Shown: in pieces, positions 11,947 to 40,239 of the stretch
How positions within the stretch are numbered: the stretch's first letter is position 1
Layout: every line of letters begins with the position of its first letter
From: Stramenopiles sp. TOSAG23-2
Lineage: Eukaryota; Sar
Assembly: GCA_900128395.1 (NCBI GenBank)
Contig: LT649301.1
Coordinates: 1 to 41,626, forward strand
DNA length: 41,626 bases
Reading direction: 5' to 3'
The notes under the pieces: generated by a model
Told to the model about the DNA's origin: nothing
What the model saw: only the letters and a program-made list of their open reading frames with translations
Database searches by the model: none
Translations under genes and position numbers: made by a program

Positions 11947-14900
11947 CTACAAGTCTGCATACCGACCACTAACGCTACTCCCTTCATGTTCCATCTTTTC
12001 AACTGCAACTTCATCAATATCAATTTTTTTCGCTTCTACTTTTGCTTTTAAATCTTTGTACTTTTTTTTCCAAAATTTATATTTATCTATCATTCTAGAT
12101 GTCCTAGATCGCTCCTTCGCTAATAAATTTGTATATTTTTGTATAGCAACTCCTGTGTGTTTTAACAACGTTTGATCCATATGACTTGCAACGGTTATAT
12201 CACGATGAATTTGTATTTGACCAGACGGATCTTTTTCATTATTCAGATTTTGCCTAGCTTCAAATCCCTGTAACAAACGATTTTTTCGTACTTCACATTT
12301 ACAATCAATATGAATCTTGTAATTTTCAATATTACGGAAAGATTCGCCACAAAATTTACATACCATGCCAGACCTTATACGAAATTTTACTTTAGTCAGA
12401 TCAGCCCATTCAGATACGCCATGATAATATAAAACATGATGTATACCGCGTACATACCGTAAAACATATGCAGTATTCCATGCTTTATGAGATTGTGAAT
12501 ATATCTCTACATGTTTACCGACTAGATAATTTTCTTCATCGTCAAAAAGATCTTCGACATCGGCAAATTCGTAATCTGAATCTGTTTCATTGGGTATGGT
12601 ACCATCTTGAAATATACCAGTCTCAATAGCTGGTTGTTTCATTGCATTTGCTTCTTCTTCTATTTCAAATAATGGTATTTGGTTCTTTATTTTATAATAT
12701 GTTTGCTTATTATCGTTTTTATTAGTATTATTATTTGTATCATCAATTTCCATTGGCATCATCATTTTAACATTATTATTATTAGTATTATTATTATTGG
12801 AAACGAAGTTTTGGTTGTTAATATTACTACTGGTAGTTGTGGTCACTTCATCGTTCGTTAAATCAAAAACTGTACTATTTTTTTGTAGTTTTCTATTTAT
12901 GAAATTATTTGAAGTATTAACACTATCGCTTTTATGTCCTATTGTTTCAAGTGAACTAGTCATATTTTCATATTCTGCTTCGGGTAACTGGAATACAGTA
13001 TGCCTTTTCTTATTCAAAGTTCGTTGATGATATAAGTTAATTTCTCTTAACAATTTTTTCTTTCGACTTTCGAGATCCATTGATTTATTTGTATTAACAT
13101 TATTACCAGCTAGAATTTGTTTCTCTTGGATTGTGTTATTCTTGTTGTTGTTATTATTATCATTATTATCACTATTATTGTTATTATTATTATTACTACT
13201 ACTACTACTACTACTGCCGATATTGGCACCAGCGGTACTATTTCCATCAATATTGGTATCAACATTATCTGACTTCCCATCTTCAAATAATGACAGTTCA
13301 TTTGATGTTTGAATAGAATTTTTCAATTGTTTCAATAGAGATGCAAAGTACAAATTTGATGGTTCATAATCCACTAAATATTTTGCTTGCTTAATTACTG
13401 TTGTTAACATGGTATTTTTGACAGATATAGGAGTAGTAAAAACTTCAGGCCATTTACCAGTATCTGTATCAATATTTTTACAATAATCTTTCCATCTTGG
13501 ATCAACTTTAAAACGGATGCGAAATTTTCTGTCGCCATGATTTGATGATAATGAAGTTATTCGTAGTCGAATTTTCATGACACCACCGAAAAATACCAAC
13601 ATGCTTGGCAACGCTCCAGCTTCTGAACGATCATCAACAATTTCCAAACCAGCATCACCTGCTTGTAAATCAACTTTCTCCATCGTATCTGCATAGACAA
13701 GCGTCGCCATTCCAGGTATCATTTCGCTTTGCCCGTTTGCATATAGTTTGTTCGAATTTACATCCATTAAATGTACTTCTAAATCAACACCATGGTATCT
13801 ACCATATATATCATTTACAAACACGTCGGATGGAAAGTCTCTTTCTATGTATAATTTCAAGCAATTCAAGCCTAATTGATTTTCCCCGTCATACCGATAT
13901 TTACGAAGCACTTTACGTTGGTATTTCAACATGTCGAGATGATCATAACTAGGACAAGAACAATTTGCATGTGGTGTGTTTAAAATCCTTCTACACAATT
14001 CTAGTTCATCTAAATAATAGATTGATTGCCTTTTCTCCTCATAGATTACATAATACATTTTCTTAATCGCTTTTTTCTCAGTAAGAACTAATTGAGTTTT
14101 CAATACACGTGCAGGACTTTGCTCTTCGCCAAACGTAATTCCAACCATGGTGGAGCCTAAAGGTTCAACTTGTAAGCGATTTGCACTTGCATAAAGATAT
14201 GCTGCTGACCAAAATTCAGTGGTACCATCCAACAATTGAATTTCAAAGATCAAACCATGGCTTTGAAATGCTTCTTTGCATGACATCAAGATGTTCTCCG
14301 GGTCTTTATTCCAATCGTATTGAAAATGTTGTCCCTTTGAATTTTTTGGCATTGGTCCATTGAAAACTAAATTCTTATCTGGGTATAGAAAAATATCTTT
14401 ATCTTTGTACATTATCTTGTCCGTTTGCCGAAAAATATTGACAATTTTTCCACGACGTAACTTGACGCTCTCCAATTTATATTTTTGCATTGCGCTTTTG
14501 ATATTGGTAAACCTATAATCTTCTTTGCATTTACCAGGCATTTCCTTGCATTTGCATGGATTATAAAGACATGGAGTATAAAAACATTCCTGCACGTAGA
14601 TACCAATATTTAACTTTCGCAATAATTCAATATAGCGGCTGTACACTAAACGCATAAATGTATTGACTGATGTTTGAACATCTAATGGTGCGTACGATTT
14701 ACAAGCATATTCCAACGGCTTTTTGTTAAATAAAAATTGTTTGAAAAAATCTTTTGAAAAAATATCTACTGGCATTGATAAATTAGCACGTATTTGTTGG
14801 ATGCCAATGTAAACAGGTTTTTTAAACGTATGGGTTAGATTCATGTCATTCGTACGGTTCTGCTCATCGTCATCCACGAAAGTCCATCCTTCTGACTTTA

Positions 14901-15726
14901 ATTCTTCTTTCAATGCATGTACCATCTGATTCCTTATATATTTGGGTGGAATAATAGGCTTACGTTGATGATATGGACATTCCGTTACTGCCCATCGACA
15001 ATAACCACCTGCTCGAATTTTCGCACAACATAATCGTAAACGACCAAATTGCAAACCTTGTAAACAATTCAATTCCTTTTCAAATTTATACCTCATGACT
15101 TGTTGCACTTGTTCTTCTTGAATCAATTTAGTAACAACTCCTAGCTTCTTTGTTGCATTATTGTTTTCAGCAGTTTCGCATTTTTCATTGGCGTTACCAT
15201 AATTCCTATCGTTGTTGTTGTTATTATCCATGAACTTATTTCGTTTATTTCCATATTGGATTGATTTTTCATCCGTTCTTGTTCTTTTCTGTGTTTTACT
15301 TATTTGGTCCTTAACAGATTCAAATTCAGAGGATAATTTATCCATTGTTTCAATCTTCAGATTCATTTCTTTTAGCTTCAATAATTTCAATTTAACCCTA
15401 TTGGCAGGATCTATTTCATCACTTAAAGCACGAGGGATAATTTGATTACCAAAATTTTCCACTTCTACCATACGTTCATCTTCTGCATCATTATATTCTT
15501 CAATATTTATTATTGACGGTTTATTATCATCAATCACCCTTGTCGTAGTTGTTGTCGTAGTAGTACTCGTGGTTGTTGCTAAATCACCTGCAGCTGTTGT
15601 AGTCATATCTACTTTATTATCATTATTATTTTCATTGTTGTTGTTGCTCTGGTTATTATTATTATTATCGTTATTACTATTATTTGATTGTACGTTTGGT
15701 TCACCAGAAGAATTATTCATATTCAT
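11947..15726 (-). CDS. large Tudor-like/zinc-finger protein, possible chromatin or transcription factor
   Basis: A 1259-residue protein ending in TAG. Residues 1-70 and about 860-890 are Asn/Thr/Ser-rich low complexity. A Cys/His cluster near 225-255 (CCAKIRAGGYC...TECPYH) resembles small DNA-binding zinc modules. A second Cys-rich patch, CFYTPCLYNPCKCKEMPGKC, sits near 377-396. Residues 630-770 are a beta-rich block (VDLEVHLMD, LEIVDD, MKIRLRITSL, FRIRFKVDP) reminiscent of Ig-like folds of transcription factors, without a firm match. Near 1065-1115 is a Tudor-like barrel (YLVGKHVEIYSQ...WNTAYVLRYV...YYHGVSEW), then a CxxC...H...C finger (CKFCGESFRNIENYKIH) at about 1122-1145 and a coiled coil at 1202-1242. 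The combination suggests a chromatin-reading or regulatory protein; I know no named homologue. The frame is complete without introns. Confidence 0.8.
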   Translation of the reverse strand: MNMNNSSGEPNVQSNNSNNDNNNNNQSNNNNENNNDNKVDMTTTAAGDLATTTSTTTTTTTTRVIDDNKPSIINIEEYNDAEDERMVEVENFGNQIIPRALSDEIDPANRVKLKLLKLKEMNLKIETMDKLSSEFESVKDQISKTQKRTRTDEKSIQYGNKRNKFMDNNNNNDRNYGNANEKCETAENNNATKKLGVVTKLIQEEQVQQVMRYKFEKELNCLQGLQFGRLRLCCAKIRAGGYCRWAVTECPYHQRKPIIPPKYIRNQMVHALKEELKSEGWTFVDDDEQNRTNDMNLTHTFKKPVYIGIQQIRANLSMPVDIFSKDFFKQFLFNKKPLEYACKSYAPLDVQTSVNTFMRLVYSRYIELLRKLNIGIYVQECFYTPCLYNPCKCKEMPGKCKEDYRFTNIKSAMQKYKLESVKLRRGKIVNIFRQTDKIMYKDKDIFLYPDKNLVFNGPMPKNSKGQHFQYDWNKDPENILMSCKEAFQSHGLIFEIQLLDGTTEFWSAAYLYASANRLQVEPLGSTMVGITFGEEQSPARVLKTQLVLTEKKAIKKMYYVIYEEKRQSIYYLDELELCRRILNTPHANCSCPSYDHLDMLKYQRKVLRKYRYDGENQLGLNCLKLYIERDFPSDVFVNDIYGRYHGVDLEVHLMDVNSNKLYANGQSEMIPGMATLVYADTMEKVDLQAGDAGLEIVDDRSEAGALPSMLVFFGGVMKIRLRITSLSSNHGDRKFRIRFKVDPRWKDYCKNIDTDTGKWPEVFTTPISVKNTMLTTVIKQAKYLVDYEPSNLYFASLLKQLKNSIQTSNELSLFEDGKSDNVDTNIDGNSTAGANIGSSSSSSSNNNNNNNSDNNDNNNNNKNNTIQEKQILAGNNVNTNKSMDLESRKKKLLREINLYHQRTLNKKRHTVFQLPEAEYENMTSSLETIGHKSDSVNTSNNFINRKLQKNSTVFDLTNDEVTTTTSSNINNQNFVSNNNNTNNNNVKMMMPMEIDDTNNNTNKNDNKQTYYKIKNQIPLFEIEEEANAMKQPAIETGIFQDGTIPNETDSDYEFADVEDLFDDEENYLVGKHVEIYSQSHKAWNTAYVLRYVRGIHHVLYYHGVSEWADLTKVKFRIRSGMVCKFCGESFRNIENYKIHIDCKCEVRKNRLLQGFEARQNLNNEKDPSGQIQIHRDITVASHMDQTLLKHTGVAIQKYTNLLAKERSRTSRMIDKYKFWKKKYKDLKAKVEAKKIDIDEVAVEKMEHEGSSVSGRYADL

Positions 15727-17313: not shown

Positions 17314-20300
17314 TTAAAATGTTGCAAAACTATTGCTACGGTAATACTCTTGAATATGCATTGGTGGTGTGTCAGCATTTGTGCTTCTCCATTGCAAAGC
17401 TTTTACCAACATGACACCACATTTTATATTAGTTATCAAACCGACACCAAAATCTACAGCTGTTCTACGGATCAAATAACCATCAGAAACAGTCTCTGTG
17501 CGGAAACCATCTGGAATATTGATTACAAGTTCAATTTTGCCATCAGACAAATATTGAATAGAGTTTGGCTTCGCTTTACTAGAAGGTTTATGAAGTGTCG
17601 TTATTTCGACACCATGTGATCTTAAATATTCAGCAGTACCCGTTGTCCCAAACAAATTGTAATTCAAACCTTGTAAAATACTAGCACATTCACGAAATGC
17701 TTCTTTAGCTTTCTGAGGGCCCAAAGATAGGAAAACATTCCTTGATTTGCTTGGCAATTTAAATTTAGTCGACAACAATGCAAGTAAATAAGCTTCATAT
17801 CGATTTGAGCCAAAGCAAGCAACCTCACCAGTCGATGACATTTCAACACCTAACGTTGGATCAGCACCTTGTAACCTTGTAAATGAAAATTGAGGTGCTT
17901 TGATGCCAACATAATCCAAATCCAAAAGATTAAATTGCAATCTTTTTGCTGGCAATCCTGCCATGACTCGTGTTGCTAAACTAATCAAGTTAACATTAAA
18001 GGTTTTTGAAGCAAAAGGGAATGTTCTTGAAGATCTTAAATTGCATTCAATTACCTTGACAAAATTATCCCTTGCCATATATTGTATGTTGAATGGTCCA
18101 GAGATATGAAGGCCTTGTGCAATTTTAGCACTAATAGCCTTAATTTGACGAATGGTTTCAACATATAAACCTTGTGCTGGTAAAATCAACGTTGCGTCGC
18201 CTGAATGTACACCGGCATTTTCAATATGTTCTGATATTGCATAATTTAAAATTTCACCATTCTTTGCAACACCATCAAATTCAACCTCTTTGGCATTTAA
18301 AATAAACTTCGACACAACAATTGGACCTTCCAAAGCAGTTGCGGATACCTGTTCCAAAAAATTTGAAAGCTCCGTCCAGGATGATGCAACGCGCATGGCA
18401 GCTCCGGATAGAACAAAACTAGGGCGCACCAAGACTGGATAACCCATTTTATCGCATGCTGCTTTCATTTTTTCTTTGCTTGATCCACTAAATTCAATCC
18501 ACTTTGGCTGATCAACACCTAAGCGATCAAGCAACGCAGAAAATTTATGCCTGTCTTCAGCCTGATCAATCATTTCTGGCGCAGTACCTAATATATTAAC
18601 GCCTTGGCGATGCAATGGCAATGCAAGGTTATTAGCAATTTGGCCACCAACAGAGACAATAACTCCTTGTGATACTTCACGTTCGTATATGTCCAACACA
18701 CGTTCACATGACAACTCTTCGAAGTACAATCGATCACTTTCATCGTAATCGGTGCTCACAGTTTCTGGGTTGTAATTAACAACAATGGCTTTGAAGCCAC
18801 TTTTACGAAGTTGGCGAACACAGCTTACAGCGCACCAATCAAACTCTACACTGCTACCGATGCAATAAGGCCCACAACCTAATACCATAATACCTTGTGC
18901 ATCGAATTCAATATCATCTTCACTACCGGAATACGTCATGTATAAGTAATTTGTCTGAGCCGGATATTCAGCTGCTAGCGTATCAATTTGTTTAACACAT
19001 GGTTTGACGTCCATCGACAAACGTTTTCTCCGAACAATAAGTTCCGACGTATTGCACCGGGAAGCAATTTGTATATCGGAGAAACCATGTTGTTTTAACG
19101 ACAAGATTTGCGGCCTGGAGAACGAATTGATATCTTTGGATGCAACTAATGCCCTTTTTAGCTCATCAACATTCATCAATTTAGATAAAAACCATCTGTC
19201 GATTTTCGTTAATTGATGCACGCGATCTACTGTGTAGCCTCTTTCCATGGCCTCTGCAACTGCAAATACACGTTCATAATCTGGATTTTTAAGTTGATTA
19301 TCCAGTTCTGCATCTGAAATTTCTCTTAAACGTGGAATTGATTCAAAACCAGCAATACTTGGTGATGTCATACGCATGGCTTTTTGGAAGGTTTCCTCGA
19401 AACTACGACCAATGGCCATAACTTCACCAACACTTTTCATACTACTTCCGACACTATTCGAAACTCTGTTGAATTTTTTTAAATCGAAACGAGGGATTTT
19501 TACAACACAATAATCTAACGATGGTTCGAAGCAAGCAGTTGTCGTTTTCGTTACACTATTGCGTAGCGTAACCAAATCGACACCAAGCGCTAATTTTGCA
19601 GCAACGTATGCCAATGGATACCCAGTCGCTTTTGATGCTAATGCACTAGAACGCGACAATCTTGCATTTACTTCAATGACACAATATCTCTCACTTTCTG
19701 GATGCAATGCATATTGTATATTACATTCACCGATTACCCCTAAATGTCTTACAACTTTAATAGCTGCTTTGCGCAATTTGAAATATTCTTGATTGGATAA
19801 TGTTTGCGATGGAGCAACAACGATGGAGTCACCAGTATGTATACCAAGCGGATCAAAATTTTCCATATTACAAACGGTAATACAATTATCACGACAGTCT
19901 CTAACCACTTCGTATTCAACTTCTTTCCATCCTCGCAAATCTTGATCTACTAAAATTTGTGGAGATGCTGCAAATGCTTTATTTGCTAAGTCGATTAATT
20001 CTTTTTCATTATCTGCAAAACCAGATCCTAAACCACCGAGTGCAAAAGCTGCACGGACTAGAACTGGATAGCCAATTTTATTGGCTGCATCTACAGCTTC
20101 TTTAACATTTGTTGCACTGTAGCTTAGTGCAGCACTTTCACCAACCGTCTGTAAACGTTTTGCAAACTCCTCTCTATCTTCAGTTGCCATAATTGCTGGA
20201 ATTGGAGTACCTAACACTTGTACATTGTATTTTTTCAAAACACCTGCTTCATGCAATTCTACACCAACATTCAATGCAGTTTGCCCACCCATAGATAAAA

Positions 20301-21789
20301 TGATACTATCAGGCCTTTCCTTCTCAATGATTTTCACACACATTTCCATGGTAACCGGTTGAAAATATACTTTATCAGCCATTCCCATTGACGTTTGCAC
20401 AGTAGCAATATTTGGATTGATTAAAATGACTTCTTTTCCTTCCTCCTTCAAAGCTTTAATAGCTTGGGAACCACTGTAATCAAATTCTCCAGCTTGCCCG
20501 ATTGATAAACCACCAGAGCCAAGCAATAAAATTTTTGATACTTGTGGTCTATTGTACATCAATGGATCAATCAATTGAACATTATCAACCGTATTTCTCA
20601 CATTTTTCAAGAATGTTTCGAACAAAAATGCCGTATCTGTTGGGCCACCACATGCTTCCGGGTGGAATTGTACACTGAATATTTTCTTGTACGCATGGGT
20701 AATGCCCTCGTTACTCATATCATTTGCATTGATGAAAAGTGTATTCCAACCATCTGGCAACGAATCGCTATCAACCGCATAACCATGATTTTGTGGTGTA
20801 ATGTAGCAACGACCTGTACGCAAATCGACACATGGCTGGTTCATACTACGATTACCATATTTCATTTTATACGTTTTTGCACCTGCAGCTAATGCTAAAA
20901 TTTGATTTCCAAGGCAAATTCCAAAAATTGGTTTGTCTTGGCCATCAATGGCCCAACGTATGCTTTCTACACATTTTTCTGCCATGGTTGGATCCCCAGG
21001 TCCATTACTAATGAAAATTCCATCATATGTAATATTGCTTGGATTGCTCTTTAAATCATAATCATACGGCACGACATGAACATCCACACCTTGATTTACT
21101 AAATATCTTATGATATTAAATTTAATACCACAATCAAACGCAATAATTGTTTTATCCCCATTTTTACCATAAACTTTAGGTTCTTTCAACGATACCTCAG
21201 CAACTAAATTTTCCTTATTAGGATCTTTGATTTCGCAATCGCCATCCTCAAATACAATCTTTCCAAGCATAGAACCTTTCTCTCTGATTTTTTTGGTCAG
21301 TCTCCGAGTATCTAAACCAAATAAAGCTGGCACATTGTGTTCTTTTAACCATTCAGATAATGAACGTGTTGCGTTCCAATGACTATGTACTTGACTATAG
21401 TCAGAAACGATTAATCCGGACACATGGATATTATTCGATTCAAAATGCGCTGGCAAACCGATATCATCCTTTTCGTCTCCTGGTACACCATAATTACCGA
21501 CCAAAGGATACGTAAGAATCAATATTTGTTTGCGATAACTAGGATCAGTTAATGCTTCTGGATATCCAACCATACCAGTATTGAAAACAATCTCACCACT
21601 TTTTGGAAGATTAGCACCAAAGGAATAACCTTCAAAAGCATCACCATCTTCAAATACTAATTTCCCAGGCTTGAATTTTGACATATCAAAACACGCTGTT
21701 GCTGATTGAGCAGTTATTTGCCTCCTTTTCCTTTTGCTTTCTCCATTACCATTTGCTGATCCATTGCCGACTACACGTTTATTCATCAT
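17314..21789 (-). CDS. carbamoyl-phosphate synthase II, fused glutaminase and synthetase
   Basis: A 1491-residue enzyme making carbamoyl phosphate from glutamine, bicarbonate and two ATP for pyrimidines or arginine. The small-subunit part (about 38-400) has a GATase with nucleophile C292 in FGICLGNQ and H376/E378 in VQFHPEA, so it uses glutamine and differs from vertebrate CPS1, which lost this Cys. Two ATP-grasp synthetase halves follow, starting [20 protein letters not shown] near 418 and [20 protein letters not shown] in the second half. A C-terminal MGS-like allosteric domain begins near [14 protein letters not shown] and contains [13 protein letters not shown]. The chain ends there, with no dihydroorotase or aspartate transcarbamoylase. 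The N-terminus (residues 1-33, KRKRRQ) is basic but not a clear mitochondrial leader. Start is ATG 21789, with a second ATG at 21786. Confidence 0.97.
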   Translation of the reverse strand: [1491 protein letters not shown]

Positions 21790-22482: not shown

Positions 22483-24141
22483 ATGGCATCTCTTGCAGAT
22501 TTTGAAAAGTTAAGAGTTGGTCTCATTCAAAAAATTGCTTCTGCAGATACACCGGAAAAAATATCAGCATTATTAGCACAAATGAACAATATTCCAACTG
22601 CTGATAATAATAATGATACAAACGATAATGGTAGTAGCAAAGATGATAGCAACAACGACAATGCTGACGAAACAAAAACAATTGAAATCAAGGAAGAGGA
22701 TACCAAAGAAATTATTGCTGCACGTCAATATTTACAAAGTGTAGGTCCATATGGTATGTATAAATTTCAAACGTCTTTCGGATTTGTAAGCACCAACAAT
22801 AATAGTGATAATAATAATAATAATAATAATGATAATAATAGCGATAGTATATCACGCAGTGATTTTTTATCTATAAACACTGATATCCCTTCCAATATCT
22901 TTAACGATCTGGCAAATGTACTTTTTACAGGAAATGATTCAATACTTGTGAAAGATATTTTATTGAAAATAATTGGTAATTTTAATGCAACACGGCAAAA
23001 TATGTGCTCAGCAACTTTCACTTCCTTTGATAGAATCGATAAGAAAAAAGATAAAAATTATGCTTCGTTAGCCTCTATTTTAACAAAGTTCTCTCCGTAC
23101 AATCATCCACTAGTTAAATCTGGTGTGAAAAACGTGGATGTTGTTGCACAAGAATTTTTTGATACGTTTACTATTGAACCAGAGAACAATGGTTCTGTAA
23201 GTTCCGAAGAGTGGGAAAGGTATGTAATGAATCAAAGTTTATTTATCGATAACGATGCAAGCTTTGAACTTTTTTTGCGCAGAACATGGCAAATGAGTGG
23301 AACGTTCCATTTAAACAAAATTTTAGTTACGGGAGAATCATCAAGTCTTTCCACACCAGATCAAAGGAGCAAAGGTAGGAAGTTGATGACGGACAAACAT
23401 GGGGAAATATATGGTGGAACATTTTCCATATCATCCGATTCTAAAGCGACACCAATATCACCAAAAGGGAAGAAAACATTTGTACAAGAACACAAAGATA
23501 GAAATATTGGCTCACATATGAAAGGTGCAGCAGCAATGTCTATGGAAGAAGTTTCACCATCTGGTAGAAAAGTTCATCAAGATCACAATGTATCGCAATT
23601 CAAAGGTATGACACCAAATGAAGGAAGTGAAGTTCCACGTGCTAGTCGTAAATTGATAAATACGGATAAGGATACACTGTCAGGTAGTGGTGTTGATCCA
23701 GGGGAATTGAATTTAAAAATTGGATTACGAAAAATAAGCAAGAAAAATCATTTTGATGGTAGCTCCGTTGGCGTAGCGTCGAATCATGAAGGGGAGGTAT
23801 CTGGTAGAGGTTTAAAACGGCTGCCAGTATCCAATGAATCTCATTTTAAAAGCGGACACGTGGCGGAAGATGATGTCGAACCAGCACGTGGTTTAAAACG
23901 TATTGTTGTTGCAAACAATATGGATAATGCCGGGTTATCAAATTCCGAGAGAAAGGTAGTTAGGAAAAGGCAAAATAAAACCATGGAAAGCAATAAGCCA
24001 TATTATTGGGATGACTCCAATAAAAAAACTGGCGACAATAGTAAGAAAGATAATGATTTTACGCAAAGTATATCCGGTCGTAGAAAAGGTGGGATGAAAA
24101 AAATTACACCTGGTGGCAATTCACAGATTATATTTGGATAA
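22483..24141 (+). CDS. degenerate calcyphosin-like protein with C-terminal GRK-type repeats
   Basis: A 552-residue protein. Residues about 78-272 follow the calcyphosin (CAPS/CAPSL) layout: GPYGMYKFQTSFGF, then a region corresponding to FRKLDKTGDG (TSFDRIDKKKDK), a loop corresponding to NAKHHP (SPYNHPLVKSG), and the last EF-hand with NNGSVSSEEW followed by SLFIDNDASFELFLRRTWQM, very like calcyphosin SASIDND..FELMMRNAW. Canonical Ca-binding Asp residues are mostly lost in every loop, so Ca binding is doubtful. Two Asn/Asp-rich inserts lie at 41-62 and 104-122. From about 295 onward comes a tail of loose repeats of roughly 30-45 residues: G+[KR] followed by D.H or N.SH (GRKLMTDKHGE, GRKVHQDHN, SRKLINTDKD, GLKRLPVSNESH). 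Calcyphosins in protists are often flagellar; that role is inferred. Confidence 0.8.
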   Translation: MASLADFEKLRVGLIQKIASADTPEKISALLAQMNNIPTADNNNDTNDNGSSKDDSNNDNADETKTIEIKEEDTKEIIAARQYLQSVGPYGMYKFQTSFGFVSTNNNSDNNNNNNNDNNSDSISRSDFLSINTDIPSNIFNDLANVLFTGNDSILVKDILLKIIGNFNATRQNMCSATFTSFDRIDKKKDKNYASLASILTKFSPYNHPLVKSGVKNVDVVAQEFFDTFTIEPENNGSVSSEEWERYVMNQSLFIDNDASFELFLRRTWQMSGTFHLNKILVTGESSSLSTPDQRSKGRKLMTDKHGEIYGGTFSISSDSKATPISPKGKKTFVQEHKDRNIGSHMKGAAAMSMEEVSPSGRKVHQDHNVSQFKGMTPNEGSEVPRASRKLINTDKDTLSGSGVDPGELNLKIGLRKISKKNHFDGSSVGVASNHEGEVSGRGLKRLPVSNESHFKSGHVAEDDVEPARGLKRIVVANNMDNAGLSNSERKVVRKRQNKTMESNKPYYWDDSNKKTGDNSKKDNDFTQSISGRRKGGMKKITPGGNSQIIFG

Positions 24142-28826: not shown

Positions 28827-29039
28827 TTAAATTTGTTCATCTAGCCAATCCAATTCATCCTCCTCCGTCGTTGATGCCGCCAGTGGTTTTACATCAATTT
28901 CAATTGTATCATCATTTGCAACATCATCTTTGCTTGCCATTTTCACTCTTTTTTTAATCTCATTTGATTTTTTACCATATAATGAATCAATTTCAGTAGC
29001 ATCATTTAATAATTTATTTTTTAATAGCGATGGCATCAT
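28827..29039 (-). CDS. small acidic protein of unknown function
   Basis: A 70-residue frame from ATG 29039 to TAA at 28827. It starts MMPSLLKNKLLNDATEIDSL, has a basic middle (KKSNEIKKRVK) and ends acidic (TTEEDELDWLDEQI). Codon use looks like real coding sequence, with no low complexity. The frame stays open 38 codons further upstream, but there it is purely antisense to the crystallin gene, with unlikely Cys/His/Leu composition, so I prefer the ATG at 29039 or 29036. An internal ATG at 28940 would give a 37-residue acidic peptide. Its start overlaps the start of the rightward gene by 10 bp. The family is not recognised, and a spliced upstream exon cannot be excluded. Confidence 0.5.
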   Translation of the reverse strand: MMPSLLKNKLLNDATEIDSLYGKKSNEIKKRVKMASKDDVANDDTIEIDVKPLAASTTEEDELDWLDEQI

Positions 29040-29662
29040 TTTATAATGATGTAAGCAGTTCAATAAATGATAGGACATCAAGTGTAGTTGTACCAAGTGG
29101 TTGCAAAGTGGAAGTGTTTGAGCATTATAACTACAGAGGAAGAAAAGCAACATTGAAAGCTGGAACGTACAGATATTCTCAATTCAGACGATTGTTTCCA
29201 AATGATCGATTAAGCAGTTTGAAAGTATCTGATGATGCACCAACTCCACCAAAACCATCTCCGTGCGTAGGATGCGAGAAAGAAGTCGCAACGTTGAAAA
29301 CCCATTTGAAAACATCTCAAACTGCAAATACTCAAATGAAAATTAAGTCCGCGCAAAAAGATAAATTGATGAAATCACAGGCAGATCAATTTGCAAAGAA
29401 AGAAGCTTCATTAAAAGCATCATCAGAGCAAAAGGATAAAATGGTGAAATCACAAGCTGATCAATTGAAGGAAAAAGATGAAATGATGAAAACACAAGCT
29501 GATAAATTTGCAAAGAAAGAAGTGAAGATACATGCAGATTACAAACAAGAAATGCAAGATATGCGCGCAAAAGCGGGGTTCACAATTGCATCTATTGATA
29601 AAGAGAGAAGTGAACTTAAACAACAACTGGAACCACAACGCCGATTAGTAAGAAGATTGTAA
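29030..29662 (+). CDS. beta/gamma-crystallin domain protein with coiled-coil repeats
   Basis: A 210-residue protein from ATG 29030; TAG at 28997 closes the frame upstream with no other ATG. Residues about 12-67 form a single beta/gamma-crystallin domain of the microbial type: an entry NDRTSS (13-18), VPSGCKVEVFEHYNYRGR with the Tyr/Gly-type Greek-key corner, then FPNDRLSSLKV (56-66), which matches the (N/D)(N/D)xx(S/T)S calcium-binding clamp. A Pro-rich linker with CVGC follows (72-83), then a charged coiled coil to the end, built of about three 30-residue repeats of KDK(L/M)(M/V)KSQADQ(F/L). Ca2+ binding by the domain is predicted; the coiled coil suggests oligomerisation. There is no signal peptide. 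The crystallin call is firm; the cellular role is unknown. Confidence 0.85.
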   Translation: MASFYNDVSSSINDRTSSVVVPSGCKVEVFEHYNYRGRKATLKAGTYRYSQFRRLFPNDRLSSLKVSDDAPTPPKPSPCVGCEKEVATLKTHLKTSQTANTQMKIKSAQKDKLMKSQADQFAKKEASLKASSEQKDKMVKSQADQLKEKDEMMKTQADKFAKKEVKIHADYKQEMQDMRAKAGFTIASIDKERSELKQQLEPQRRLVRRL

Positions 29663-30049: not shown

Positions 30050-30347
30050 TTAATCACTATCAGACAATGCAACAACATTAACATCATGAAAACTTGTATT
30101 ATTGACATTATTATCCTCTAAAGATGAATAATCTAACATATCATCTGAGTAATCTAACATATCATCTGAGTTGGACTTGTTTTGATCATCATTGTATCCA
30201 CCACCATATTGTCGTTCGTTATAGTTAATTTTCTTGCTGCTATTTGAATAAAAAGCATCATTTGCTTGCTTTTGTTGTGATTTGTTATACACCTTGCTAT
30301 TGTTATTTTTACCATCAGAAGTGTTAAAGAAATAATTTGAAAAATAC
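30050..30347 (-). other. probable frameshifted C-terminus of the ankyrin-like gene
   Basis: The leftward frame open from 30347 to TAA at 30050 encodes a plausible continuation (SNYFFNTSDGKNNNSKVYN, then YSDDMLDYSDDMLDY and SFHDVNVVALSDSD), rich in Asn/Ser/Asp like the tails of neighbouring proteins. In the same bases, the frame of the 718-residue protein changes character after VKIPSIF into hydrophobic, Thr/Ile/Met-rich text. The two frames meet at an A5 run (30341-30345), where one extra base would join them. I therefore treat this as the true tail, displaced by a one-base indel that is either real or an assembly error. A separate 80-residue gene starting within it is less likely. Confidence 0.5.
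30129..30170. repeat. 21-bp tandem repeat, two copies
   Basis: TAATCTAACATATCATCTGAG occurs twice head to tail. In the 30050-30347 frame it encodes a repeated DDMLDYS heptapeptide, keeping frame (21 bp = 7 codons), which supports that frame being translated. Confidence 0.85.
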
Positions 30348-32310
30348 TAGGAATTTTAACTTTTGTATCCTTTCCATCATTTTTACTCTTTCCGTAATAT
30401 TTACTATCAGTGATGTAATATTCAATTGGTGTCAATAAATGTTCATTATCTTCTTTGTATTGTTGTGGTTCGCTAAAAAATATTTTTTCATCATCATAAG
30501 CAGCAGCACCATTGTAATTATTATTATTACGACTGTTTTTAATATCATTATATGATTGAAAATATTTACTTGCTTGATATTCATTTGCTTTTAAAAAAAG
30601 TAAATTACATTCATAATATACAAGGATGTCTTTTTTTGATATTTTATCTTTACTTGTTTCATTTGCCCCATTATCATTTTCTTCTGCTTCATCATTCCTG
30701 TTGTCATAATATACAAGGATGTCTTTTTTTGATATTTTATCTTTACTTGTTTCATTTGCATCTATGATACATTTACGAACATAGCTACTTATCACTCCAC
30801 CACTAATATCATAATCTTTATTTTTTACTATTTCGTCTTCATGTTGAGATGCAATATGCTCCAAATGTTCTGTCAAAAAAAAAATACGTAATGAATGAAA
30901 TATAAAAGTGTCATTTGCAATATCGTTTATCTTTTGGCTGCCCATCTTTTTTAAACCTTTCATGCCAACATTTCCACCTTGGTCATTGAATTGAAAATGG
31001 TGATAATGAAATGCCATTGACATATAAGCTTGATAATAAGTATGTATTAATTCAATTTTATTAACTGTCAACAAGTTACTCAATTCGTCGATTTCGTTTA
31101 CTATAATCTCAATATCATCACTATGTTCCCTTTCAAATATTTTATACATATACATGTTTTCTGCTAACGCTTTCTTATTATCAAAAAGTATTAGCTTGCT
31201 ATTTTCATCAAGAAATTCAAAGGACACATGTGGTTTTTCTATCACTTGATTGTTAAGATTATTTTTATTCCAAAGGATTGAATCTTGTAGAAATTCATCT
31301 CCTTCTAGGTCACTCAATTTCAATTCACCTAAGGTCTCAAGTACACTACTTGACCTAGCCCTGGATCTACTTCTTGCTTGTAACGAACCACTGCTAAACC
31401 GCCGTGATAATCTCTTGCCAAATGTAGTTTTTTTTGTATCTTTTCCCTCCAATCGTATACAAACTTTCCATGGATCCCATGGTCTTTTCAATAACTCAAT
31501 CTTTGATTCAGGATGTGTAGTATAATAAATTTGGCAATAATCACCAAAGCTTTTCCATATACCTTTTTCGCCATCATCTTTATCCAAATTACTAGCAGTA
31601 CTATGGATATGTTCAATAACATGTCTCTTCGACTGGTCTCTTAAAGAACTTTTACCACCTTGGACAATCCTTCTCGCTATCGCTTTGATTATGAAACTAC
31701 ATTCTTTTTCCATTTTATTACTTTTTAAGTAATTAAATATATTTTGATTGTTTTTATCTTCACGTTTTATAGATACGCCTAGTGTAAATAATGTTATTAA
31801 AATCTTTTGCCTCACTTCCATGTCTTCCTTTGTGTTATTGATGATATTTTCCGGTGCGAATAAATAAAATATTGGTGTTTTGCCGTTTATATCACTTTCA
31901 TCGCTCAAATCTGACCAGCCTCCTAAGGAAAATAATAAATCAAGCGTTTTTGGATACGCTTTTTTACAGGCAAGGTGAACTGGAAATTCTTCAATTGTAC
32001 TATTATCAATATCTTCAGTAATTTTTGATCTTCTTATTTTTCTAGCTAAGTCAGACGAAGTAATCAAAGGCTCTACCAATTTTTTACATTCTTCAACCGA
32101 TGCGTCATCAGAATTTGCATTTTTAATCTTATTATACAATCGTTTAAATAATTTCTTTGCTTCTTCAATTTGCAAGTTTAAAACATACCTTGAAGAAGAT
32201 TGGTGGCGAACAAGCGAGTGGCGGGATGAGGAAGAAGAGGTTGATGATTCTTGAGTTGTTTCAAATAAATTAATTTCATTTACATCAATATCTTCTTCAT
32301 TTTTTGACAT
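30154..32310 (-). CDS. ankyrin-like protein with in-frame internal duplication, tail frameshifted
   Basis: A 718-residue open frame from ATG 32310 (A at -3). Residues 1-42 are Ser-rich; about 45-95 is helical. Residues about 108-215 look ankyrin-like (EEFPVHLACKKAYPKTLDLL, NGKTPIFYLF, LITLFTLGVSIKRED). A basic Ser/Arg tract, SGSLQARSRSRARSSS, is near 310-325. A long helical region follows. The segment ANETSKDKISKKDILVYY then appears twice, 31 residues apart, because of a 93-bp duplication (30612-30759). It continues ECNLLFLKANEYQASKYF. After VKIPSIF (near 30350) the frame loses coding character; the better continuation is the 30050-30347 frame. The same 96 bp occurs, inverted, at the right edge of the window in a different gene. 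Function unknown; ankyrin repeats suggest protein binding. Confidence 0.7.
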   Translation of the reverse strand: MSKNEEDIDVNEINLFETTQESSTSSSSSRHSLVRHQSSSRYVLNLQIEEAKKLFKRLYNKIKNANSDDASVEECKKLVEPLITSSDLARKIRRSKITEDIDNSTIEEFPVHLACKKAYPKTLDLLFSLGGWSDLSDESDINGKTPIFYLFAPENIINNTKEDMEVRQKILITLFTLGVSIKREDKNNQNIFNYLKSNKMEKECSFIIKAIARRIVQGGKSSLRDQSKRHVIEHIHSTASNLDKDDGEKGIWKSFGDYCQIYYTTHPESKIELLKRPWDPWKVCIRLEGKDTKKTTFGKRLSRRFSSGSLQARSRSRARSSSVLETLGELKLSDLEGDEFLQDSILWNKNNLNNQVIEKPHVSFEFLDENSKLILFDNKKALAENMYMYKIFEREHSDDIEIIVNEIDELSNLLTVNKIELIHTYYQAYMSMAFHYHHFQFNDQGGNVGMKGLKKMGSQKINDIANDTFIFHSLRIFFLTEHLEHIASQHEDEIVKNKDYDISGGVISSYVRKCIIDANETSKDKISKKDILVYYDNRNDEAEENDNGANETSKDKISKKDILVYYECNLLFLKANEYQASKYFQSYNDIKNSRNNNNYNGAAAYDDEKIFFSEPQQYKEDNEHLLTPIEYYITDSKYYGKSKNDGKDTKVKIPSIFQIISLTLLMVKITIARCITNHNKSKQMMLFIQIAARKLTITNDNMVVDTMMIKTSPTQMIC
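30612..30759. repeat. 55-bp perfect direct repeat, 93-bp period
   Basis: The 55 bases at 30612-30666 recur exactly at 30705-30759. On the coding (minus) strand each encodes ANETSKDKISKKDILVYY. The 38-bp spacer encodes DNRNDEAEENDNG. The 93-bp period is a multiple of three, so the gene stays in frame. Confidence 0.95.
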
Positions 32311-37188: not shown

Positions 37189-40100
37189 TCAAGCCTGCCC
37201 TAAATCATTCGCACTACTGGTAAATGTTCCATTGTAATCCAATCTCATTTTTAAACTTGGACTAATACCAGATAATACTAGAAATAAATAATTACTATGC
37301 CGTGTATATTCTGAATCGATTTTAGCAATGTCAATTTGTTTCACTTTAGTTAAATCTTTTTCATTTTCTTCTACTAAATTGCACAATGCAACGCATAGTC
37401 GAAAAACACTATCTAATGTTCGTCTTATAGTTTTTGCATCTAAAAAACATTGGCGTCTAATGGAGGAAACAAATCTTGAATGTGCTTTTTTTAAGGAATC
37501 ATAATCACGAACTTGTGATAATTGCTTTTGTAATATATGCCATTGTACTTCTAGTACATCTACATGTAAAAAATATTGCAATGCATTCACTAAAAATAAC
37601 ATCCTTGACCGCAAATGTGATAATCGAATATATACTTTATTCACACTTAAATTACCAGTCCCTCGAATATTTGCAGCACGATACATCAATGTTGCCCAAC
37701 ATTCTTGCAATGAGGCACTGACACGTTTAATAGTAAATAGAAAACGAAACATATCGTTGTACTTTGCAAAATCAGTCTGCGAGATAACTAATTGCAATGG
37801 CCATGGTATATCATATGTCAATTGCAATTTTGTCCAAGCATCAAAAGATGAATCTTTTCTTAATATTGATTCAAAATTCCAACTAGATATTTGTACTTGA
37901 TTATTTGCATTCAATCGATTTGATATGGTTCCAATACCAACCCATGCTTGGCCTCCATCACTGCTATTACTTAACGTAAGTGTTTCCGATACATCCAAGT
38001 TACATGTTATAACCGGATTAACAGTAAATGGAATTTTTAATTTTGGTATCTTGTTGCTTGTATCACCTTCGTCCTTTGATGACATTGCAAAAGCTAAATA
38101 TACTAAGCATTTCATATTATTGTTGTTATTGTTGTTGTTGTCATTAATATTAATATCGTATGGATTTGCATCATATTTATAAACAACACGCATTGTAACA
38201 TCAACCATAGTTACATTATTTTTTTTTGAATCGTCATCTTTATCAAAAATGTCAATAATTGTATCAGCTAGTATATTAGAACTTTGCTCCTCATTAGTTA
38301 TATCATATGTAGACATTAATGCTGAAGTTGGTCTTTTGCTTTTAATTTGTACACTTATACGATTATTATCAACTAGTGTGACTTGAAAGCTAATTGAATT
38401 TGGTATATCATCTACAGGTAAACTGTGCAAAGCACCAAGTTGTGCATTATGTAAGACAAAGCAAAACCCACATTTCTTTTTTGATGATGCATAGCCACTA
38501 CTATCATTATTAAATGTAGTTGTTTCGTTGCTAGTATGAATCCTACCAGTAATAGTACTAGCATAACCAAATTCCACAACTTTTGCTTCACGATATACAA
38601 TTCCACCTCCCACACTACTAACATTGTAATGATCGTTAATATTATTATTCTCACCAATACGACGACTGGATCTAGATGGAATAATATCATTCGATAATGA
38701 TGACCTTGAAAAGCCACCTACAACACCAGGGATGCCACTAGTATTACTACTAGATGACAATGACGATGGGCAATTTAAATATATTGTTCCGCTACTTTTA
38801 TCATACGTTGAAGATTCATTCAGTATAATATTTTCATTCGTTTCAGGTTGGAAATTCGTTATTATAAACGATGGAGCATATAAACGAAATGATAGATTAT
38901 TGTATGCTAAATTAGATAATAAATCTAATTTTGATCCTGCATGCCTTAATGGGCCAGAATTAATATCTTGCGTGGCAAATGCAGATGGTGGTTTTTTGAA
39001 CATATCAACACATTCATCAATTATACATTGGAAAAATTCACCTTTACTTAGCAAGAAATAATCTTTCGCAGCTTGTAAATGTTCATTTAGCAATGAATCT
39101 TTGATTAACAAATCATACAATTGACAGCTAACTGCATTATGTACAATATTTATTTCCAATTCTAAAATCGACATACTAAAATCAATTTCTGGATTTAATA
39201 ATTTCGTCACTGTATCTTTTATTTTTCTCATCGGTCCTTCCGTACCATCTAATAATTTATTTAAGCGTTGTTTACTTGGTGAATCGCGATCACGATTGAT
39301 TATTTTGCGAAATTCATTTAATAATTTTACTACTTTACCAATAAATAAAACTTTTTCTGCAATTTCATACGATACATATGATGTTGGTACTCTATCTAAA
39401 CGTAATATAAATTGTAAATTCCATGCTCGTTCTGCACTAAATGCATCTACGTATTGTTTATTTTGTCGCAACGATGATGACGATGTATGCTGTTGTTGAT
39501 TTTGTGATCGTTGCGCTCTTTGACTATATTGGTTGTGATTATATTTATTGTTATTATTTCCATTATTTTTATTACTAATGCTCATATGTTCCATATCACG
39601 TTCTAATATGAAAAAATCATTATATCGATCATTAATCAAACCTTCCGATACCCATGATATTAATTGTCTATAAAATGTACGTTCAACAGACAACAATACA
39701 AATTTTAAATATGGCTTCAATGCAGGTGCACACACCTTGCACTTTTCATGCAAGCAATTTAACAATTCACCCCCACACAAACTCAAACTTTCGCATTCAA
39801 ACAATATGTCAAAGAAATATTTAAATAATGTTTTATAAGATGCAAACGAATGCCGCAAATGTGCTATAGTTAAATGGCTTTTCATTGATACACTTAATAT
39901 TTGTTTTTCAACTTTAGCTATTTCCATAGTATACTCATCAGCAATTTTTTTCATCGCTGTACACATGACTCGAACATACGAGCTTTTCGGTCGATTTAAT
40001 TGATTATCAATCAAAGAAGACAAGCGCTTGTAACGGAATCCAACATCTACTAAATCTTCTAACTCTTCTCTTTCAGATGGTCCAATAAAATCAACAAACT

Positions 40101-40239
40101 CAGCAACTTTAAAACCGTATGCTTTGTCACCATTGTTATTATTATTTTGAACATTACTCATACTGGTACTACCATATTCTTTCTCCACAAATATATTCCC
40201 AGTATTCCCGGTCAACGCAATTAATACTTCATGCAACAT
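37189..40239 (-). CDS. TUBGCP4: gamma-tubulin complex component 4 with inserted L-type-lectin-like domain
   Basis: A 1016-residue protein ending in TGA. It opens MLHEVLIALTGNTGNIF, the start typical of GCP4, and continues with GRIP1 elements: LTIAHLRHSFASYKTLFKYF, ERTFYRQLISWVSEGLI, RVPTSYVSYEIAEKVLFIGK (all before about residue 310) and DYFLLSKGEFFQCIIDECVD near 390. GRIP2 follows after about 795: LTYDIPWPLQLVISQTDFAKYNDMF, IKRVSASLQECWATLM, VNALQYFLHVDVLEVQW and LRLDYNG near the C-terminus. Human GCP4 is about 667 residues. The extra mass between about 450 and 790 matches the strand order of an L-type-lectin/ConA-like sandwich: ITNFQPETNENIILN, CGFCFVLHNA, DDIPNSISFQV, then LDVSETLTLS...AWVGIGTIS...ISSWNFES. 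GCP4 builds the gamma-tubulin ring that nucleates microtubules at centrosomes or basal bodies. Confidence 0.92.
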   Translation of the reverse strand: MLHEVLIALTGNTGNIFVEKEYGSTSMSNVQNNNNNGDKAYGFKVAEFVDFIGPSEREELEDLVDVGFRYKRLSSLIDNQLNRPKSSYVRVMCTAMKKIADEYTMEIAKVEKQILSVSMKSHLTIAHLRHSFASYKTLFKYFFDILFECESLSLCGGELLNCLHEKCKVCAPALKPYLKFVLLSVERTFYRQLISWVSEGLINDRYNDFFILERDMEHMSISNKNNGNNNNKYNHNQYSQRAQRSQNQQQHTSSSSLRQNKQYVDAFSAERAWNLQFILRLDRVPTSYVSYEIAEKVLFIGKVVKLLNEFRKIINRDRDSPSKQRLNKLLDGTEGPMRKIKDTVTKLLNPEIDFSMSILELEINIVHNAVSCQLYDLLIKDSLLNEHLQAAKDYFLLSKGEFFQCIIDECVDMFKKPPSAFATQDINSGPLRHAGSKLDLLSNLAYNNLSFRLYAPSFIITNFQPETNENIILNESSTYDKSSGTIYLNCPSSLSSSSNTSGIPGVVGGFSRSSLSNDIIPSRSSRRIGENNNINDHYNVSSVGGGIVYREAKVVEFGYASTITGRIHTSNETTTFNNDSSGYASSKKKCGFCFVLHNAQLGALHSLPVDDIPNSISFQVTLVDNNRISVQIKSKRPTSALMSTYDITNEEQSSNILADTIIDIFDKDDDSKKNNVTMVDVTMRVVYKYDANPYDININDNNNNNNNNMKCLVYLAFAMSSKDEGDTSNKIPKLKIPFTVNPVITCNLDVSETLTLSNSSDGGQAWVGIGTISNRLNANNQVQISSWNFESILRKDSSFDAWTKLQLTYDIPWPLQLVISQTDFAKYNDMFRFLFTIKRVSASLQECWATLMYRAANIRGTGNLSVNKVYIRLSHLRSRMLFLVNALQYFLHVDVLEVQWHILQKQLSQVRDYDSLKKAHSRFVSSIRRQCFLDAKTIRRTLDSVFRLCVALCNLVEENEKDLTKVKQIDIAKIDSEYTRHSNYLFLVLSGISPSLKMRLDYNGTFTSSANDLGQA

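Follow-up and report, generated by a model that had tools for sequence, protein, structure and literature searches.

A large insert with a candidate L-type-lectin-like fold in the gamma-tubulin complex protein GCP4 of the stramenopile TOSAG23-2

The DNA analysed in this study, referred to as the window, is a stretch of 41,626 nucleotides from Stramenopiles sp. TOSAG23-2 (contig LT649301.1). On its minus strand, a single open frame at 37189..40239 (stop codon included) encodes a protein of 1016 amino acids from its ATG, which is a real gene and an ortholog of the gamma-tubulin complex component GCP4, interrupted by a large insert with a candidate L-type-lectin-like fold. Both GRIP parts are present according to Pfam. 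GRIP1 (GCP_N_terminal) covers residues 2-380 (39100..40236, minus strand; E 1.7e-38). GRIP2 (GCP_C_terminal) is divided: a first piece (profile positions 1-38) at residues 384-421 lies directly before the insert (38977..39090, minus strand), and the remainder (profile positions 82-307), the predicted gamma-tubulin-binding part, comprises residues 792-1004 (37228..37866, minus strand; E 4e-48). The best matches among solved structures in a PDB sequence search are GCP4 chains (4e-59), followed as the best non-GCP4 chain by GCP3 (9.6e-23). Animal GCP4 (PDB 3rip and 6v69 chain I) has the same two-part architecture and gives the best match across both halves, and the full-length structural model matches chains of gamma-tubulin rings including the GCP4 crystal structure 3rip. 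The initial annotation, which described a GCP4 with an insert between its GRIP halves, is therefore borne out by the open frame, by both Pfam families and by the best PDB match.

The alignments to solved GCP4 chains stop at residue 429 of the window protein, which pairs with GCP4 residue 395, and resume at residue 796, which pairs with GCP4 residues 443-444. Thus, an insert of about 366 residues (430-795; 37855..38952, minus strand) replaces the about 48 residues found at the corresponding place in animal GCP4. The strand strings that had initially been quoted for it were located in residues 443-794. The mean in-frame codon score is 0.157 in the insert and 0.205 and 0.114 in its flanks, while the other five frames are negative. 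A splice donor of the GTRWG type, the only donor type looked for, was not found in residues 425-475. The same insert is present in the protein P0001 (45 member sequences), which is 99% identical, with 8 differences in 1016 residues. It can be considered extremely improbable that an intron or a misassembly accounts for the insert and that the mature protein lacks it, since the frame is open, its coding scores are positive, no such donor lies near the insert start, P0001 shares the insert and the sequence is conserved at the protein level in two more distant relatives, P0002 and P0003. The insert is coding and conserved.

In P0002 (983 aa) and P0003 (945 aa) the insert is 34% and 28% identical to that of the window protein, and outside of it the identity amounts to 43-45% over residues 1-429 and to 54% over the last 220. 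The first protein search with the window protein returned five matches, namely P0001, P0002 and P0003 as well as the lancelet TUBGCP4 (P0004) and a GCP3-like protein of a fly (P0005). Residues 360-945 of P0003, used as a query, brought in P0006 (1072 aa), and P0007 (1215 aa) was added with residues 752-870 of P0002, a query that contains just the last few insert residues. Both are GCP4 by their best PDB match, and at the position of the window insert they contain about 350 to 480 residues. Hence, in three protein searches, all five GCP4 matches P0001, P0002, P0003, P0006 and P0007 carry a large insert, although this sample is small and limited by the exact-word matching of the searches. Viral and prokaryote contigs were also scanned and yielded no relative. 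A survey of the insertion point among relatives had been proposed as a check on the initial annotation, and large inserts do occur at the same place in P0002, P0003, P0006 and P0007. In the lancelet P0004 no clear counterpart was seen, as judged by eye from the alignment, so that, for animals, the lack of the domain in GCP4 applies to the solved chains and to this protein. P0004 (997 aa) has several hundred extra residues within its GRIP1 part, away from the insert site, which possibly result from a gene-model fusion.

The genome searched is an assembly of 17.45 Mb in 793 contigs, with the window as contig C68. The other GCP found in it is a GCP3 (1.6e-141; G000:C5:28043-30049, locus L002). 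Its PF04130 match is unbroken, with a short linker at the place of the insert, and this insert-free protein serves as an internal control. GCP2, GCP5 and GCP6 were not found in the assembly, which may be incomplete in view of these missing members, GCP2 included.

The predicted beta sandwich extends over about residues 450-791 (37867..38892, minus strand) and was delimited from models and lectin comparisons at low model confidence. AlphaFold models of the full-length protein and of the insert show the insert as all-beta with 12-13 predicted strands; 13 of them lie between residues 457 and 791, with a low-complexity loop at about 485-545. In a structural second look, L-type lectins made up 43 of 50 rows at modest Z (5.0-5.8). 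A prediction for the whole protein had been suggested at the outset, and it agrees with the proposed sandwich in its all-beta character and falls short of it in confidence.

For an analysis independent of the models, the lectin profile was started from a typed generic consensus (292 bits to PF00139), which retrieved plasmid-borne lectins from environmental bacteria. Three plasmid lectins aligned with the consensus yielded 80 loci in prokaryote genomes, and 80 of the 83 loci were used as the profile. The insert family profile comprises three sequences; P0006 and P0007 were aligned poorly by MAFFT and omitted from it, with P0006 kept in the full-length alignment. Both profiles were aligned as hidden Markov models, with column shuffles as null. 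This alignment co-registers the strands of the N-terminus, the one preceding the lectin ADG loop, the HN and AWVG strands and, at the end, the SW-F strand. The posterior sum amounts to 95.1, compared to 77.8 for the best of 200 column shuffles and 48.7 for the reversed alignment, so that none of the 200 shuffles reached it; the HHalign local score was reached by one of 200. For six controls taken from the window, of which some are beta-rich by family, the z values lay between -0.89 and 0.28 (60 shuffles each).

The two remote inserts were compared singly with the lectin profile, and with 100 shuffles the real value was reached once for P0006 and never for P0007. The lectin landmarks co-register along the whole domain in P0006 and in the middle part only in P0007. 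With a profile built from the other three inserts, P0006 scored 3.3 bits (E 0.9), with one shuffle scoring higher among the matches listed, and P0007 was absent among the matches listed for the same search. HMMER with the bacterial lectin profile scored the inserts at -2.0 to 4.3 bits. Out of 300 shuffles, the real score was reached by 2 for the window protein, 2 for P0001, 80 for P0002, 20 for P0003, 26 for P0006 and none for P0007; the reversed sequences of P0002 and P0003 outscore the real ones.

Several results weigh against a lectin-like fold. The predicted local distance difference test (pLDDT) value is low, with 54.1 for the full-length model and 47.9 for the insert. Foldseek with the models gave no match at E <= 0.001, and its top rows were mostly spike proteins at a template modelling (TM) score of about 0.2. 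In the structural second look Z stayed below 8 throughout, where the tool warns of a possible common arrangement. A profile search of the insert against lectin families had been named as a check and came out negative: Pfam reported no lectin family up to E 10 for the window protein, P0002, P0003, P0006 and P0007, and the Lectin_legB, Lectin_L-type_dom and Lectin_leg-like profiles were all unmatched at this limit. The window protein showed no Pfam family up to E 10 beyond GCP_N_terminal and GCP_C_terminal, and a search of PDB sequences with the insert profile had no match. The HHalign global score of the insert family was reached by 53 of 200 shuffles, and the program's own probability is 3.8% for the family, 0.88% for P0006 and 0.55% for P0007. 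Taken one at a time, the inserts of the window protein, P0002 and P0003 were matched or exceeded in 9, 6 and 11 out of 100 shuffles, respectively. For the window insert the reversed sequence even scored higher than the real one (61.9 compared to 60.8), so that this insert alone is not significant.

Nevertheless, we consider it likely that the insert adopts an L-type-lectin-like fold, because the structural second look, the profile-profile test and the separate tests of P0006 and P0007 agree. The sandwich that the initial annotation had proposed is partly supported, by these three lines of evidence; it lacks support from model confidence, from Foldseek and from the window insert taken alone. 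That the insert is instead another beta-rich domain (galectin-like, CBM66-like or an unrelated sandwich), with the lectin likeness reflecting a common arrangement, appears unlikely in view of the predominance of L-type lectins among the structural rows and of a model-independent profile test that no shuffle reached, L-type lectins being the only sandwich family profiled. An expansion of low complexity that is largely disordered and has no definite fold would fit the low pLDDT and the Ser/Asn-rich stretches in the insert of the window protein (12% N, 14% S). However, P0002 and P0003, which are without asparagine runs, retain conserved strand-like blocks, and with 12-13 strands predicted as well we regard disorder as very improbable. 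A lectin-like insert is most likely seen in three separated groups with decreasing certainty: the window protein with P0001, P0002 and P0003, then P0006, then P0007.

Compared with L-type lectins (PF00139 of legumes, the ERGIC-53-like PF03388 and the bacterial proteins), the likeness of the insert consists in strand order and landmarks with an unpermuted N-terminus. The insert differs from them in that Pfam gives no significant match, signatures of the metal and sugar sites are missing, and its position is inside a ring protein that is expected to be cytosolic. VEFDT-like, ADG-like and NHxGI-like signatures, in patterns checked on the 80 bacterial lectins, were found in none of the six inserts, whereas VEFDT-like and ADG-like signatures occur in 78 and 79 of these 80 lectins, respectively. 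Since these signatures are missing, conventional binding of sugar and metal is unlikely judging from the sequence, in line with what had been remarked at first. A functional cytosolic lectin domain that binds sugar would have the resemblance of the fold in its favour; with the usual signatures missing from all six inserts, it is highly improbable, although an atypical site is conceivable. The only PF03388 gene of the genome encodes a secretory-type lectin that keeps its DGL motif and has no relation to the insert detectable by BLAST (best E 6.0), and PF00139 has no match in the genome. A recent copy of the organism's own secretory lectin was rejected as a source on the basis of that comparison.

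Insertions in other spoke proteins of the gamma-tubulin ring offer a basis for functional considerations. According to excerpts of the respective reports, MID-domain insertions are present in GCP5 and GCP6 and not in human GCP4 (PMC7280788), and the GCP5 insertion 567-608, a helix-turn-helix, contacts GCP6 (PMC12094035). These, too, occur in the middle of a spoke protein, and the one of GCP5 differs from the predicted sandwich by its helix-turn-helix. By the alignment ranges, GCP6 has only about 99 residues between the points matching residues 369 and 800 of the window protein, so its large insertion must lie elsewhere, and a common insertion site of both proteins is rejected. In Candida Spc98, the insertion Asn626-Leu656 bridges to Spc97, and its deletion splays the spokes in 51% of particles (PMC7658347, in excerpt). 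It is likewise an insertion of a spoke protein, in GRIP2, but of about 30 residues and without a folded sandwich, and the alignment ranges place it probably further into GRIP2 than the insert described here. In a survey of diatoms, GCP4 ranges from 272 to 733 residues in length, many of the surveyed sequences are called fragments, and the available parts mention no such domain (PMC10454807). Among the literature matches listed, a scope that left out most subscription papers, there was no report of a lectin-like domain in GCP4.

Because other spoke proteins use their insertions for contacts, the insert is by analogy most likely a protein-contact module, and a docking role is a reasonable inference. 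On balance, we favour a GCP4 spoke with a degenerate L-type-lectin-like sandwich that serves protein contacts on the gamma-tubulin ring. The short GCP4 linker before the gamma-tubulin-binding GRIP2 bundle would here be replaced by a folded ConA-like beta sandwich which, lacking the metal and sugar signatures, would most likely act as a protein-binding platform on the spoke. This platform may brace neighbouring spokes or dock the ring to a microtubule-organising site. The genome encodes SAS-6, with matches of its N-terminal domain on two different contigs (G000:C624:10388-10906 and G000:C469:6957-7286), so that centrioles or basal bodies are likely in this organism as judged from its gene content. 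No match to a light-harvesting protein was found in the genome. It appears doubtful, though conceivable, that the lectin-fold module is old and vertically inherited in several deep protist lineages, has been reduced to a short linker in animals and acts as a dedicated receptor, either attaching the ring to basal bodies or locking adjacent spokes together. The solved gamma-tubulin rings matched here are from vertebrates and yeasts, and GCP4 in them is without a comparable folded domain. If the reading is correct, a conserved module occupying one fixed position in the GCP4 of protists would mean that folded docking domains are possible in spoke subunits and would give a direct handle on ring anchoring in cells far from animals. 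Furthermore, a lectin fold, familiar mainly from secreted proteins, would have been reused as an intracellular interaction domain.

Elsewhere in the window, the frame at 17314-21789 on the minus strand encodes a carbamoyl-phosphate synthase of 1491 residues with fused glutamine amidotransferase and MGS domains; an aspartate transcarbamoylase (ATCase) or dihydroorotase (DHOase) domain was not reported by Pfam in this protein. Three further long open frames of 1259, 552 and 718 amino acids, at 11947-15726 (minus strand), 22483-24141 (plus strand) and 30154-32310 (minus strand), match no Pfam family at E <= 0.001, with weak matches or none up to 0.1. A frame of 210 residues at 29030-29662 on the plus strand has a beta/gamma-crystallin match (4.3e-6).
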